Positions 82-5,092 of a DNA stretch of 64,000 bases are shown here, in pieces; the stretch's first letter is position 1, and every line of letters begins with the position of its first letter. The stretch is from Streptomyces sp. NBC_01142. GTDB taxonomy: Bacteria; Actinomycetota; Actinomycetes; Streptomycetales; Streptomycetaceae. Below the pieces are notes generated by a model. It saw only the letters and a list, made by a program, of their open reading frames with translations. It was not told the origin of the DNA and did not search any database. The stretch is from NCBI RefSeq assembly GCF_026341125.1, contig NZ_JAPEOR010000002.1:1984001-2048000 (forward strand), read 5' to 3'. Both the position numbers and the translations under genes were made by a program.

Positions 82-1902
82 CTAGCTTCGTCCCATATGC
101 CTCAATAGGGCTTCTACATCGCCGGGAGCGAGGCCGGCGGCCACAGCGGGTTCCTCCTGCAAGTCAGCCAACTGCTGGACAGAGGGGTCATCGAGGATCT
201 TGCCCATGAACTCCAATTTTTGATCAAGGCGAGCCTCTACCACCTCATCGATCGTGTCTCGGACAGCGAGCACCGTCACACGAGTCTCGGTATCTGGGTC
301 AAGCCCGAGCCTGTGGATACGGTCAAGGCTCTGGAGGAAGCGTCCAGCGACGAAGTCTCGGTCGACATACACAGCGTCATGACAGACCTGGTGCAGGCTG
401 ATGCCTTCACCGAGCGTCGCCGGGTTAGAGAGCAGCACCATGCATGCCGGATCCTCCCGGAAGCGTCGCAACTGCTCATCCCGGTCTGGGGTCCCGCCGT
501 ACACGGTCGCGGGGGCGTACTTCTCCAGTAGCCGTTCGAGAGTGGTCAGGCTGCGAACGAACGTCGTCCAGATCAGAGTCTTGCGTCCCTGCCTGGCGTT
601 CTCGGCAACGATCGCGGCTGTCTCCTTGTACTTGGGCGACAGCTCGTAGTCAGGCAGATTCTGCATGAGCGCGTAGAGCGAGTGCCCCTGAGGAATCTCG
701 AGCGGTGGCAACTGGTATGCCAGGGGCTCGTATCGGCTGGCGCCGTCGAGCAGTAGCGCCGGGCTCGTCGCGGCCATCAGCAAGCGAAGGGCTGTCTTGC
801 CCAGACCACTGAGGTCGTCGTTTGCAGCGCGGGAGTCAGGATCGCCCACTAGAGAGCCGTAGATGTCGGCGTGTAGGGGCGGCATATCCACGTACCGCAT
901 CCGAAGCTCTACCGGCGGCAGACCAAGCTCCAGCTTCGTCGTCCGCGTGAAAAGCGGCTTGAGCGCGACACTGGCCTGGGCCAGATTCCCGCCGGCCACG
1001 GCGCGGGTGACCGATCGCTGTCCGTGTCCCGGCCAGACGAAGCCCAAAAGGTTTTCCAAGTCCTTCGATCCATTGGGAGCTGGAGTACCCGTGAGAATCA
1101 GCCGTCTCTGAGCCAGGGGGCCCAGAGCCATACAGGCAGCTCCGTAGGTGCCTCGGGCCCCGAGCTTCATCCGATGCGCCTCATCAAGGATGAGCATCGC
1201 GGGCTCGGCCTTGAGCCACGCCGCCAGTGTCGCGAGCGACCGGTCCAGTCGTTCGTAGTTGACGATCAGAACCTCCGCCCACTCATCCAGTGAACCGTCC
1301 AGCACATGTGGGCGGAGCCTGTGTCGGAAACACACCGCCGTCTCGTACTTCCACGACTCATAGGCCGACTTCGGACACACAACGAGCAGTCGATTGACGT
1401 GTCCCATCGTCTTCTGTGCCGAGTACACGCCAAGAGCTGCCCGAGTCTTCCCCGCACCCGGGACGCTGAAGTTCGCCCCATGCTGGAGGGAGAGCAGCTT
1501 CGCTATGTCACGCCGCTGGAACTCACCCAGCTCCGCGATCCACTCATCGCCGAGCAAGTGAGGCACGTCATCCGAGAGGACCTCGCCCGTGTGGTCCGGA
1601 GTGCTGAGCCTCCTCTCAACCGTCGCTGCATCTTGAAGGTTGCCAAGGATCAGGGCTCTCAGGTCTGGAGCCCACTCCACCCCTTCTGGATCAGACCAGC
1701 CTGCGACCTCACCCACACTGGCAAGCAAGTCATCGAGATCAACCGCAGCTGTCAGAGGGCCGAGCTGGCCGCCCGTCCGGAAACGAGCGGCCAGCTGCAC
1801 GAGCTCCCCTCGGTAGTTCTCCGTGGTCCCGAGAACTACCTTGGTACGCGTCTCGTCGAATCCGAGGCTCAGCGTGACCTCGGCTGCCGTACCAATTGTC
1901 AC
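82..1902 (-). CDS. SNF2-family DEAD/DEAH helicase/translocase
   Basis: A 606-residue superfamily 2 ATPase. Walker A is VPGAGKT (about 147-153), the DEAH box is ILDEAH (about 238-243), motif III is LTGTP (about 270-274), and motif VI is QSLDRIHRLGL near 524-534. The first 130 residues form an N-terminal region without a recognised motif. SNF2 proteins of this size move along double-stranded DNA and often serve restriction or anti-phage systems rather than chromatin. The start is a GTG that overlaps the stop of the ParB-like gene as GTGA, so the two are translationally coupled. It is the last gene of a three-gene operon. The family is clear from the motifs; a defence role is inferred from context only. 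Confidence 0.85.
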   Translation of the reverse strand: MTIGTAAEVTLSLGFDETRTKVVLGTTENYRGELVQLAARFRTGGQLGPLTAAVDLDDLLASVGEVAGWSDPEGVEWAPDLRALILGNLQDAATVERRLSTPDHTGEVLSDDVPHLLGDEWIAELGEFQRRDIAKLLSLQHGANFSVPGAGKTRAALGVYSAQKTMGHVNRLLVVCPKSAYESWKYETAVCFRHRLRPHVLDGSLDEWAEVLIVNYERLDRSLATLAAWLKAEPAMLILDEAHRMKLGARGTYGAACMALGPLAQRRLILTGTPAPNGSKDLENLLGFVWPGHGQRSVTRAVAGGNLAQASVALKPLFTRTTKLELGLPPVELRMRYVDMPPLHADIYGSLVGDPDSRAANDDLSGLGKTALRLLMAATSPALLLDGASRYEPLAYQLPPLEIPQGHSLYALMQNLPDYELSPKYKETAAIVAENARQGRKTLIWTTFVRSLTTLERLLEKYAPATVYGGTPDRDEQLRRFREDPACMVLLSNPATLGEGISLHQVCHDAVYVDRDFVAGRFLQSLDRIHRLGLDPDTETRVTVLAVRDTIDEVVEARLDQKLEFMGKILDDPSVQQLADLQEEPAVAAGLAPGDVEALLRHMGRS

Positions 1903-3332
1903 GGCCGACCCTCCGCGACGGCCTCAACGAGCCAGGAAACGCCGTCGCCAGGCTCCCCCTGAATCCGCTTCGCCTGCTGGGCAAGCTTGCTGAGGCTTTC
2001 CCGCAGCTGAAGCACGGCATCGTCGAACGCCTCTTCATCGAGGCTTCGAGCCGTCCGCGCCTGCACAAGCTCGACTACGCACTGGTCGATGTCGGCGCAG
2101 GCGTCCGCGAGACGAGCGGGAGCGAGCTGCTTCCGCTTGCGTACACGTGCGTCCCGGCCGGCGTCGTCGATCGCCTTGTCGAACGCATCCTTAGCGCTAT
2201 CAAAGAGCGCACGAGCCGCCTGCTTGTCAGCATCCGGCACATCCGTCGCCGTAGCGCCAACGACAGCCTTTGCCCTCAGAATCTGATCGTTGAGCGCGCG
2301 GGCCGCGGCCACACGAGATGTCGTCCCGGGCACCGCGACACCAAGACCGGGAACCATCACAGCTTCCGGCTCAGGGCCTACGCTCTGTCCGGCGTCGCTG
2401 AGGCTCGCCGGAAGGCTCCTTGCCAGGTAGTCGGCCTTCGCGAAGTGCTCGTCGATGTGGCGAACATCCGTCTTGGCGAAGTCCAGCAGCATCGCGGCGA
2501 GACGCCACTCCTTGATGACCTCGGCCTCATCAGGCTCGACCGTCGAGAGCTTCTTGTAGAGCCTTTCGAGTTCCTTCAACTTCTCCTGGTCGTCCTCGAA
2601 GTCGACCAGTCGCAGCGCGGCAGCGCCGCTCCTGCTCCGCTCGATCAGTTCCCGGATGGTGCTGAGGATCCACCGCTCCTGGTGGTACGTCTTGGGATAG
2701 ACCCTGAACTCCCTGGCGATCTGGTCCGGAGTCCGACCCAGCGCCGCCTGCTCTTCCATCGCAAGCAGCCGGTTGATGTACGAGTAGTCGCGACGGTGAT
2801 CCTTGCGCAGCTGCAGCGACAGCTCGACGGCGTTGATGTCCGCCCAGGTGAACGAGGCCGGCAGCACGCCCACACGCATCGACTGCACGCCACTCTCTCT
2901 GAGCGCGGCAGCCCTGGTGTTGCCGTTGACGAGCACGCCGTGGTGCGTCACCAGACCCGGATCGTTCTGGCCAAACTGCTCCAGACTCTCCTTGAGCTTG
3001 TCGAAAGCCGTGTCGCGGAGATTCGGATTGGCCGGCTCAGCCTGGAGCAGATACTTCAGATACCCCTGGCTTTCCGCGCTCCAAGGATCACGATGCAGCG
3101 CCTGGTCCTTCACTGGATCATGGCTTCGCTGGGCGCGGATTCGATGGGTGCCGGGGTTGAAGTAGAGGCTTTCGAGGGGAAGATCGATGACCTCGACATG
3201 GACAGCCTGACCGTTCCAATCGACCGTAACGGTCTCCCTGGTCCCTCCCGAAGACTTCACCTCCTCCAACCTCTTCTTGATCAGCTCGCTGAACTGGTCT
3301 GCACGCGGCGGCGGCTGGAACTCTTGAAACAC
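1899..3332 (-). CDS. ParB-like nuclease-domain protein
   Basis: About 477 residues. A ParB/sulfiredoxin-type fold is indicated by the segment GVLVNGNTRAAALRESG near residues 133-149, where ParB-like proteins carry a G-N-T-R motif, followed by a helix-turn-helix-like stretch (about 190-225). The C-terminal half is charged, helical and probably coiled coil. It is too long and in the wrong context for chromosomal ParB, and there is no parA beside it. The chosen GTG has GGAG five bases upstream; an in-frame GTG at 3353, just after the stop of the upstream gene, is the alternative. The 3' end overlaps the helicase start by four bases. Such domains can bind or cut DNA or hydrolyse CTP; which applies here is unknown. 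Confidence 0.75.
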   Translation of the reverse strand: MFQEFQPPPRADQFSELIKKRLEEVKSSGGTRETVTVDWNGQAVHVEVIDLPLESLYFNPGTHRIRAQRSHDPVKDQALHRDPWSAESQGYLKYLLQAEPANPNLRDTAFDKLKESLEQFGQNDPGLVTHHGVLVNGNTRAAALRESGVQSMRVGVLPASFTWADINAVELSLQLRKDHRRDYSYINRLLAMEEQAALGRTPDQIAREFRVYPKTYHQERWILSTIRELIERSRSGAAALRLVDFEDDQEKLKELERLYKKLSTVEPDEAEVIKEWRLAAMLLDFAKTDVRHIDEHFAKADYLARSLPASLSDAGQSVGPEPEAVMVPGLGVAVPGTTSRVAAARALNDQILRAKAVVGATATDVPDADKQAARALFDSAKDAFDKAIDDAGRDARVRKRKQLAPARLADACADIDQCVVELVQARTARSLDEEAFDDAVLQLRESLSKLAQQAKRIQGEPGDGVSWLVEAVAEGRP

Positions 3333-3358
3333 GCTGACTCCGATCCCCTTCACCCTGC

Positions 3359-4048
3359 TTACTTGTCCTCTCCGGACGTTGCCTGCCGGACAGCCTCCCG
3401 GGACGCCACCGGCAGCGTCCGGTAATGGCCCCAGAGCTTCTCCAAGGTCCCCTGCGTACGCTGATCCGCTTCGATCCAGCCCGCCAAGACCTCCTTCTCC
3501 AGAGACGAGAGACCCGCTACCTGGCTGAGAAGGACGCCCAGGTCGATTTCCCGCTCTCCCCTGGTCCCGCACCGCCTGCACTCCGTAACCATCTGGTGGT
3601 CCACAGTGCCGTCAGCAAGCACGACCTTGCGACGGGCAATGTTCAGCTGGGAAAGAACATCGCCGTTGTCGCCATACGGCTCACCTGCTCCGATCCCGCA
3701 GGTACGGCACAGGAAGTTATCGTTCTGCCAGACCTTGGCTCGCTGGGCAGCACTCAGGCTGCTCTTGTGCTTGGCGACCTTCGCCTGGCCGGGGAGCCAG
3801 ACCTCGGCGCCCTTGGTCACGTAGCGCTGCTCCTGCTGCTTCAGGGCAGGGTCGTCGCGGCTCGTGTCAATCCGCCAGCCGTGATCCCGAAGGTCGCGCA
3901 GCCTTCGGTCGATCTGTGCCGACTCGGGGAAAGCCTTGCGCAGTTCGGCCTTGGTGAAGGTGTTCCCCTCCCCCACCTCGGTCTCCAGCCACAGCGCAGC
4001 GCGGATCTTGCCGCCGAACTTTTCGTTCTGCCAGGAAGGCAGCGTCAT
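3359..4048 (-). CDS. HNH-like zinc-ribbon protein, first gene of the ParB/SNF2 operon
   Basis: 229 residues. The N-terminal third (about 30-65) resembles a winged helix with the segment QIDRRLRDLRDHGWRI. The centre has two Cys pairs, C114-x2-C117 and C157-x2-C160, spaced as in a treble-clef HNH domain. The catalytic His pair of a standard HNH nuclease is not obvious between them; only one His (H151) lies near the second Cys pair. It may therefore be a degenerate HNH fold used for DNA recognition, or a divergent nuclease. The ATG at 4046-4048 is preceded by GGAG with six-base spacing. The gene is followed within tens of bases by the ParB-like gene, so it probably heads the operon. Confidence 0.7.
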   Translation of the reverse strand: MTLPSWQNEKFGGKIRAALWLETEVGEGNTFTKAELRKAFPESAQIDRRLRDLRDHGWRIDTSRDDPALKQQEQRYVTKGAEVWLPGQAKVAKHKSSLSAAQRAKVWQNDNFLCRTCGIGAGEPYGDNGDVLSQLNIARRKVVLADGTVDHQMVTECRRCGTRGEREIDLGVLLSQVAGLSSLEKEVLAGWIEADQRTQGTLEKLWGHYRTLPVASREAVRQATSGEDK

Positions 4049-4312: not shown

Positions 4313-5092
4313 ATGCGCGCCGGACAAGTAGGCACCAGGATCGACCCCAACCTCCCTCCCGGGAGGCATCACCTCGCCCGCACTCTCAAAGTGCTGCACG
4401 GCCGGATGGGTACTCCGACACTTGCGGCGGCAGCTCGCCTGTTCCAGGAGCGGGGCTACAAGACGGACCGTGACGCCATATCCCGCTACTTGAACGGCAA
4501 GCGCGTCCCGACTCTGAACTTCGTCACGCTCATGCACGCCATGGCGGTCGACCGGATGGGCTCTGCTGCTGCCGTCGGGCTGACGAGGGAAGACGTGGTG
4601 AAAGCGCACAAGCATGCCGAGAAGAGTCTCTGCAAGACATGCTCAACGCTGCACGGTGACAACAGCGATCTCCGCAGGGAAAACCTTCGGCTCAAGGACA
4701 GCGAAGCCGGCCTGTCAAAAGCGTTGGCCAAGGCTAGACGACGAGCGATGTCGCTGCCGGTCCCCCCCGCGAGAGGGGACCGGCAGCGACAGGAGAGCGA
4801 TGTTGCGGGTGCGAGACACATCGCCAACAGTGCGGGACAGCTCCGAGACCGGGGGAGAGCCGATGCGGCTCTAGCCATGCTGGTCGACACCGTCGGCACT
4901 CTGACGCCGCTCGAAGGGGCCGCATCCCTCGCCGTTCTGCGGGCGCAGCAGCAGGCTCAACTCGCGGACGCTCTGGTGCACATGTACGGACGAGAGCACC
5001 CCGAGAGGGACGTGATCCGAATCGCCCTCGAGCTCCACAAGCATGGAATGGCCGACGATGCTGTCGCGCTCCTGCGCTCAGCCGTCCAGTGA
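4313..5092 (+). CDS. helix-turn-helix protein with C-terminal helical domain
   Basis: 259 residues. The N-terminal 70 residues hold an XRE-like helix-turn-helix (LAAAARLFQERGYKTDRDAI, then SRYLNGKRVP). A CKTC motif near 105 is followed by a basic, probably coiled-coil stretch and a helical C-terminal region that looks like repeat helices. The ATG is preceded by GGGAGAGG; a longer frame begins at 4169, but no ribosome binding site supports it. The gene is divergent from the HNH/ParB/SNF2 operon across about 260 bases, so it is a plausible regulator of that operon. Many Streptomyces carry such HTH proteins in accessory regions; the ligand is unknown. Confidence 0.65.
   Translation: MRAGQVGTRIDPNLPPGRHHLARTLKVLHGRMGTPTLAAAARLFQERGYKTDRDAISRYLNGKRVPTLNFVTLMHAMAVDRMGSAAAVGLTREDVVKAHKHAEKSLCKTCSTLHGDNSDLRRENLRLKDSEAGLSKALAKARRRAMSLPVPPARGDRQRQESDVAGARHIANSAGQLRDRGRADAALAMLVDTVGTLTPLEGAASLAVLRAQQQAQLADALVHMYGREHPERDVIRIALELHKHGMADDAVALLRSAVQ

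Follow-up and report, generated by a model that had tools for sequence, protein, structure and literature searches.

A restriction-modification-like locus of Streptomyces in which a ParB-like protein and an SNF2-family motor accompany an HNH-derived protein apparently devoid of cutting residues

The stretch of DNA analysed here, called the window throughout, comprises 64,000 nucleotides of Streptomyces sp. NBC_01142 (G000:C2:1984001-2048000, window base 1 being C2:1984001), whose genome amounts to 10.1 Mb in 15 contigs. Near its left end, between positions 82 and 4048 of the minus strand, lie three genes, which encode a small HNH-derived protein (hereafter X), a ParB-like protein and an SNF2-family ATPase. 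A preliminary description, made from the letters of the window only, had placed the three on one strand with the last two overlapping by GTGA, and this is confirmed; the four letters (1899-1902) are shared by the ParB stop and the SNF2 start region. It had also advised a look for a methyltransferase just outside the window, and one is indeed found there: a gene for a C5-cytosine methyltransferase begins 148 bp beyond the SNF2 stop, and a Vsr gene is convergent with it, the 3′ ends of both overlapping (Table 1). The trio probably supplies the motor and the DNA reader of a restriction-modification-like locus. Its earlier treatment as a unit holds in that the three genes are inherited together and linked to DNA modification, but not in the sense of a stand-alone system, since the methyltransferase and Vsr adjoin.

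Table 1. Positions of the genes discussed (window coordinates unless a contig or locus is named)
Feature	Coordinates	Strand	Description
X	3359..4048	-	229 aa; winged helix and treble-clef (HNH-derived); proposed dead-nuclease DNA reader
ParB-like protein	1899..3341	-	480 aa; CTPase-fold domain of ParB type, followed by a helix-turn-helix and a long, helical C-terminus
SNF2-family ATPase/translocase	82..1902	-	606 aa; motifs complete
C5-cytosine methyltransferase	G000:C2:1982602-1983933, left of window	-	443 aa; PF00145 E 2.8e-49
Vsr	G000:C2:1982203-1982679, left of window	+	PF03852 E 1.2e-19
Divergent 259-aa gene	4313..5092	+	helix-turn-helix-like by eye only; candidate controller
Enterococcal plasmid proteins upstream of ParB-SNF2	L070 4309-6903; L075 4459-6906		815-864 aa

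How constant is this arrangement? With the ParB protein alone as query, 56 related loci (L008-L063) were gathered, in which the genes for X, ParB, SNF2, the methyltransferase and Vsr were placed by tblastn; the nearest relatives of the ParB protein itself, at 84-85% identity, are from Streptomyces. X and SNF2 adjoin ParB in all 56 loci. The methyltransferase lies inside the fetched locus in 54, being absent in L048 and in the shortened L063, and Vsr is present in 51. In 47 loci X is encoded on the ParB strand, and the other nine (L051-L058, L062) have it divergent from ParB. In a separate sample of 199 genomes of the same genus, strong matches to X (E <=6e-83) and to ParB (E <=5.5e-185) occur in an identical set of 32 genomes, and each of the 33 places with a strong ParB match adjoins a place of X when coordinates are compared by eye; a weak X match occurs alone in G027 and G132, and a weak ParB match alone in G030 and G126. 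The outcome named in the preliminary description as damaging to its proposal, homologues that never occur together, was not encountered. In a phylum-wide sample of 296 genomes two gave a match, both in the genus of the window. It is to be noted that a linear plasmid of Streptomyces albidoflavus (L064, 5553-8803) carries ParB-SNF2 together with a match to NOV_C; X, methyltransferase and Vsr were not found within the 15.8 kb fetched around it.

One may ask whether the trio is a cassette for maintenance of a plasmid or another element, in which ParB serves partition and the restriction system is a neighbour by chance. The ParB fold itself, relatives on plasmids and phage-like contigs, and ParA genes annotated in the fetched stretch of plasmid loci L065, L069 and L071 speak for such a cassette, while the location of the trio on a 3.57-Mb contig and the invariant coupling of ParB to SNF2 and X in the 56 loci make it highly improbable.

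The most peculiar component is X. Its zinc cysteines C114, C117, C157 and C160 are invariant among 53 aligned X proteins, and in a wider motif count each of the four is kept in 86/86. This count is based on an alignment with six paralogues, for which L008-L063 together with the window gave 57 X proteins and L076-L105 gave 29. The positions of the His and of the Asn after CxxC are, to judge from the usual HNH motifs, presumably those of the catalytic residues. At the former, no X protein has His; Arg stands there in 80, the protein of the window included, Gln in three, Lys in two and Asn in one, and the Asn after CxxC is kept in a single X protein. The six paralogues, one of them a fragment, have the His in all cases and the Asn in five. 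X therefore lacks the pair of His and Asn by which an HNH nuclease is defined; it seems to have been stripped of its cutting residues and not to be a normal HNH nuclease, and because the catalytic His is absent in all 86 relatives we consider it very unlikely that X cuts DNA. The preliminary description had left it between recognising and cutting DNA for the ParB-like or HNH-like protein: recognition is now favoured, and cutting by the HNH-like protein is not.

Active-looking cousins of X do exist. A search with the X profile also finds paralogues with ordinary HNH motifs, namely those of L114, G048, G027, G132 and G134; three of these five were scanned against the Pfam HNH cut-off, those of G048 and G027 being above it and that of L114 below. 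The paralogue of L114 (6613-7317, E 5.5e-56) is inside the same locus as X, between SNF2 and the methyltransferase, where L030 has a C-terminal fragment of an active-looking HNH gene. In the stretches fetched around the paralogues of G048, G027, G132 and G134 no methyltransferase was seen. Other relatives depart in different ways: L011 (5913-6611, minus strand) and L025 (2166-2867, minus strand) encode near X, on the opposite strand, a further HNH-derived protein that has the zinc cysteines and no clear catalytic His, and an X-like protein of L116 (3359-4051, plus strand) keeps the winged helix while the entire zinc part is missing.

Related ParB-SNF2 pairs occur outside actinobacteria, and there the place of X is taken by other proteins. 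In eight alphaproteobacterial and Firmicutes loci the relatives of SNF2 score 165-348 bits. Of the five other SNF2-domain places in the window genome, four were compared, over the stretches fetched, and they reach at most 60 bits. Upstream of ParB-SNF2, Rhizobium (L073) has a gene with 29% identity to a restriction-enzyme gene that adjoins the methyltransferase and matches REase_II of PADLOC with E 2e-137. All four alphaproteobacterial X proteins have 27-29% identity to this restriction enzyme and IQK in place of its ELK. Phage Javan191 (L074) carries X-ParB-SNF2-NOV_C in that order, and a cytosine methyltransferase is convergent to them; seven phage-like contigs keep this order, by eye, as far as their sequence reaches (L127 begins at ParB, L129 ends in ParB, and L124 ends before the methyltransferase). 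The BanI family is above cut-off in all five phage-type X proteins scanned (L074, L123, L125, L126, L128), and in all five the motif residues Asp, Glu and Asn of the DpnII-type enzyme of L131, which adjoins a methyltransferase of adenine type by eye, are replaced by Ser, Asp and Ser. The residues compared in these two families are those that we take to be catalytic from our own reading of PD-(D/E)XK-type motifs.

Could X then be an active nuclease with an altered centre, and the trio an HNH restriction enzyme of the usual kind to which a motor is added? The zinc site kept in every X protein and the conservation of the Arg that stands in place of His might be read so. However, both the His and the Asn are kept by the paralogues and lost in X, and two unrelated families that occupy this slot show a similar loss of residues, which leaves an altered but active centre very unlikely. 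Rather, it is possible, with a chance that we put slightly short of even, that the ParB-SNF2 module has three times or more adopted a catalytically dead restriction enzyme, of HNH, PD-(D/E)XK and BanI/DpnII type, as its target reader, and that recognition of an unmethylated site would trigger clamp loading and translocation rather than cutting at once, perhaps without a nuclease in some lineages. Two groups of loci weigh against this generalization: ParB is preceded in L067 and L069 by a gene with the annotation of a type III endonuclease, and in the enterococcal L070 and L075 by a gene for a long protein without a restriction-enzyme match. Therefore, a rule of dead readers fails to cover every ParB-SNF2 pair. 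The long proteins contain a stretch similar to sigma-70 region 4, above the Pfam cut-off in L070 and only below it in L075.

If X reads the sites that the methyltransferase marks, the two proteins are supposed to change together. Pairwise distances of X and of the target-recognition region (TRD) of the methyltransferase were compared in 51 loci, namely the window and 50 loci with all five genes; L028, in which X is cut, L048, and L051, L054, L057 and L063, without methyltransferase or Vsr, were omitted. With distances of ParB, SNF2 and the catalytic part of the methyltransferase as controls and 1000 permutations, the correlation between X and the TRD is 0.369 under linear controls (0/1000 permutations) and 0.388 when only the main clade of 39 loci is taken (0/1000), and under non-linear controls 0.256 (0/1000) and 0.255 (1/1000), respectively. 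It is 0.282 and 0.33 (0/1000) with the fast-evolving columns of ParB and SNF2 as controls, ranges from 0.32 to 0.45 in a jackknife over main-clade loci, and is 0.27 without the largest TRD group, 14 members remaining. The comparison pairs give lower values, though not in every case nil: X with the catalytic part, 0.116 and 0.078 under linear controls (permutations 17 and 227) and 0.047 and 0.03 under non-linear ones (246 and 398); ParB with the TRD, 0.119 (29) at most; fast-evolving columns of either ParB or SNF2 with the TRD, 0.085-0.154 (18-80); and Vsr with the TRD, negative. A second design, based on TRD classes that are not clean, failed, in that it shows no effect for X (829/2000) and an effect for the catalytic part (0/2000) and Vsr (27/2000). 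With shared ancestry only partly controlled and one of the two designs failing, we take the co-variation of X with the TRD, itself moderate, as moderate support for a reading of the methyltransferase's sites by X.

The components other than X mostly keep their motifs, although some of the patterns used are narrow. The ParB-like protein has the ParB N-domain fold and the box II Arg of the superfamily; N141 and R143 of box II are invariant in 53 aligned proteins, and the pattern NG[NHS][TR]R is found in 45/56. In SNF2, the four patterns of motifs I, II, III and V are present in 57/57 and motif VI in 53/57. The methyltransferases have ENV in 55/55 and PC[PQ]P[FW]S in 48/55, and the Vsr proteins have two patterns in 51/52 and the third in 42/52. 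Some ParB-fold relatives, according to the accessible part of PMC12704722, bind ATP or GTP rather than CTP.

How would such a set of proteins work together? We propose, with about an even chance of being right, that the locus is an ATP-dependent, and probably CTP-dependent, restriction-modification-like system; target-site reading, the loading order, translocation and defence are what we infer from gene linkage, motif states and homologies. The C5 methyltransferase would mark target sites of host DNA, and X, having lost the catalytic residues and kept a DNA-binding frame, would bind the same sites when they are unmethylated, that is, on incoming DNA. At the bound sites X would load the ParB-like protein as a clamp, and with it the SNF2 motor; spreading of the clamp together with translocation by the motor may leave the DNA silenced or stripped. 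In loci that encode a nuclease (NOV_C, NaeI-like or active-looking HNH), the DNA might be passed on for cutting. In the lineage of the window no dedicated nuclease was seen beside the locus by searches aimed at the NaeI-like and NOV_C families, so that the end step there could be a block of transcription or replication, the action of Vsr, or a further nuclease.

Nuclease genes are in fact distributed unevenly. Among the 56 loci, NaeI-like genes occur in 11 (Pfam NaeI on three), and in nine deep actinobacterial ones the gene after SNF2 is of NOV_C/DUF3883 type (Pfam on two), four loci having both; neither was found in 40, which include L048 and L063 and several with short flanks. NOV_C also follows SNF2 in four alphaproteobacterial plasmids (by annotation, and by Pfam in L066, where an insertion sequence lies between), and L074 and L125 have it there too (Pfam). 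The NOV_C proteins here are annotated as DUF3883, which the accessible part of PMC3710099 calls a novel restriction-enzyme domain. In the window genome there is one NOV_C match, within a frame of 1,813 aa that lies on a different contig. A search for NaeI gave no match in this genome, and as the control genomes gave none either, absence is not shown.

Two other roles without attack by the trio itself have to be weighed here. Eukaryotic SNF2 remodellers assist maintenance methylation, and by analogy X might find unmethylated host sites while ParB-SNF2 clears proteins and brings the methyltransferase, foreign DNA being left alone. The linked methyltransferase, the co-variation of X with the TRD and the 40 loci without NaeI-like or NOV_C genes agree with such a helper; on the other hand, NOV_C adjoins SNF2 in the nine actinobacterial loci and in other phyla, type III restriction genes stand directly upstream of ParB-SNF2 in L067 and L069, and no methyltransferase is nearby in L048 and L064, so we hold a helper of methylation to be unlikely. 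Distinctly unlikely is that the trio is a safety valve, where X would compete with an active restriction enzyme for host sites that are unmethylated, and the enzyme would be removed by ParB-SNF2 so as to avert self-cutting. L114, with an active-looking HNH enzyme and X in one locus, and the kinship of X and the restriction enzyme in Rhizobium L073 are what one might expect of a valve, yet no second X-profile match was found in the window genome (14/71 first-look candidates scored), nor any NaeI match in the search whose control genomes gave none either, and the 40 loci without NaeI-like or NOV_C genes mean that usually there is no enzyme found nearby to restrain.

Some further genes are to be mentioned. 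The divergent 259-aa gene to the right of X belongs to a single-linkage cluster present in 43/56 loci, mostly divergent from X, and has no Pfam family above cut-off. Elsewhere in the genome, an SNF2 domain (G000:C4:109880-110857) is contained in a 10,814-aa open frame, which resembles the giant polyvalent proteins that actinomycete plasmids are described to encode (PMC5512222, accessible part), and two more C5-methyltransferase frames of 514 and 450 aa lie close together at G000:C4:25727-33081, both matching the family in pieces only.

If the proposed reading by X, loading of the clamp and translocation by the motor are true, this would be a restriction system built around a disarmed restriction enzyme, and restriction enzymes would have been repeatedly converted into non-cutting sensors. 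The ParB clamp, familiar from chromosome segregation, would work in DNA defence with a motor similar to chromatin remodellers. Coupling of methylation-based reading of self and non-self to an outcome other than cleavage would become testable, and pairs of C5 methyltransferase and Vsr in Streptomyces that are seemingly without a restriction enzyme would be explained.

The preliminary description knew no named system made of these three components, and the open-licence literature searched likewise gave no match, nor any account of a restriction-enzyme-like protein in the company of ParB and SNF2; the word SNF2 does not appear in the main text, as far as accessible, of a 2025 survey of the ParB fold (PMC12704722). 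DISARM was rejected, as the DrmD helicase reaches 39.9 bits against a cut-off of 610. Known systems share parts of the locus, and the comparisons that follow are with the accessible parts of the sources cited. In 2008, an SWI2/SNF2 helicase with HNH or EcoRII-like nucleases was described in one group of MORC-linked restriction-modification operons, which often contain cytosine methylases and Vsr as well (Iyer, Abhiman and Aravind 2008, PMC2292703); SNF2, HNH, cytosine methylase and Vsr were thus noted together with MORC genes, and neither ParB nor a dead restriction enzyme as reader is among the components described. CglI and NgoAVII likewise have a C5 methyltransferase, a separate recognition subunit and an SF2 motor side by side (PMC4267653, PMC5737866), again without ParB and without a dead restriction enzyme as reader. 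Their class, whose recognition subunit has a PLD nuclease and a B3 domain, was rejected for X, which is related to HNH proteins and has no PLD or B3 match in Pfam at E up to 1. As in a conventional Type II system, a presumably cognate methyltransferase lies adjacent, and the 11 loci with NaeI-like genes resemble cassettes of C5 methyltransferase, Vsr and a NaeI-family enzyme; the present locus, however, adds X-ParB-SNF2, and 40 loci are without a NaeI-like or NOV_C gene found. Finally, the type IV enzymes of GmrSD type also unite ParB and HNH folds in one system (PMC12839542), while here the two folds are on separate genes, the HNH-derived subunit lacks catalytic residues, and an SNF2 motor and a linked methyltransferase accompany them.

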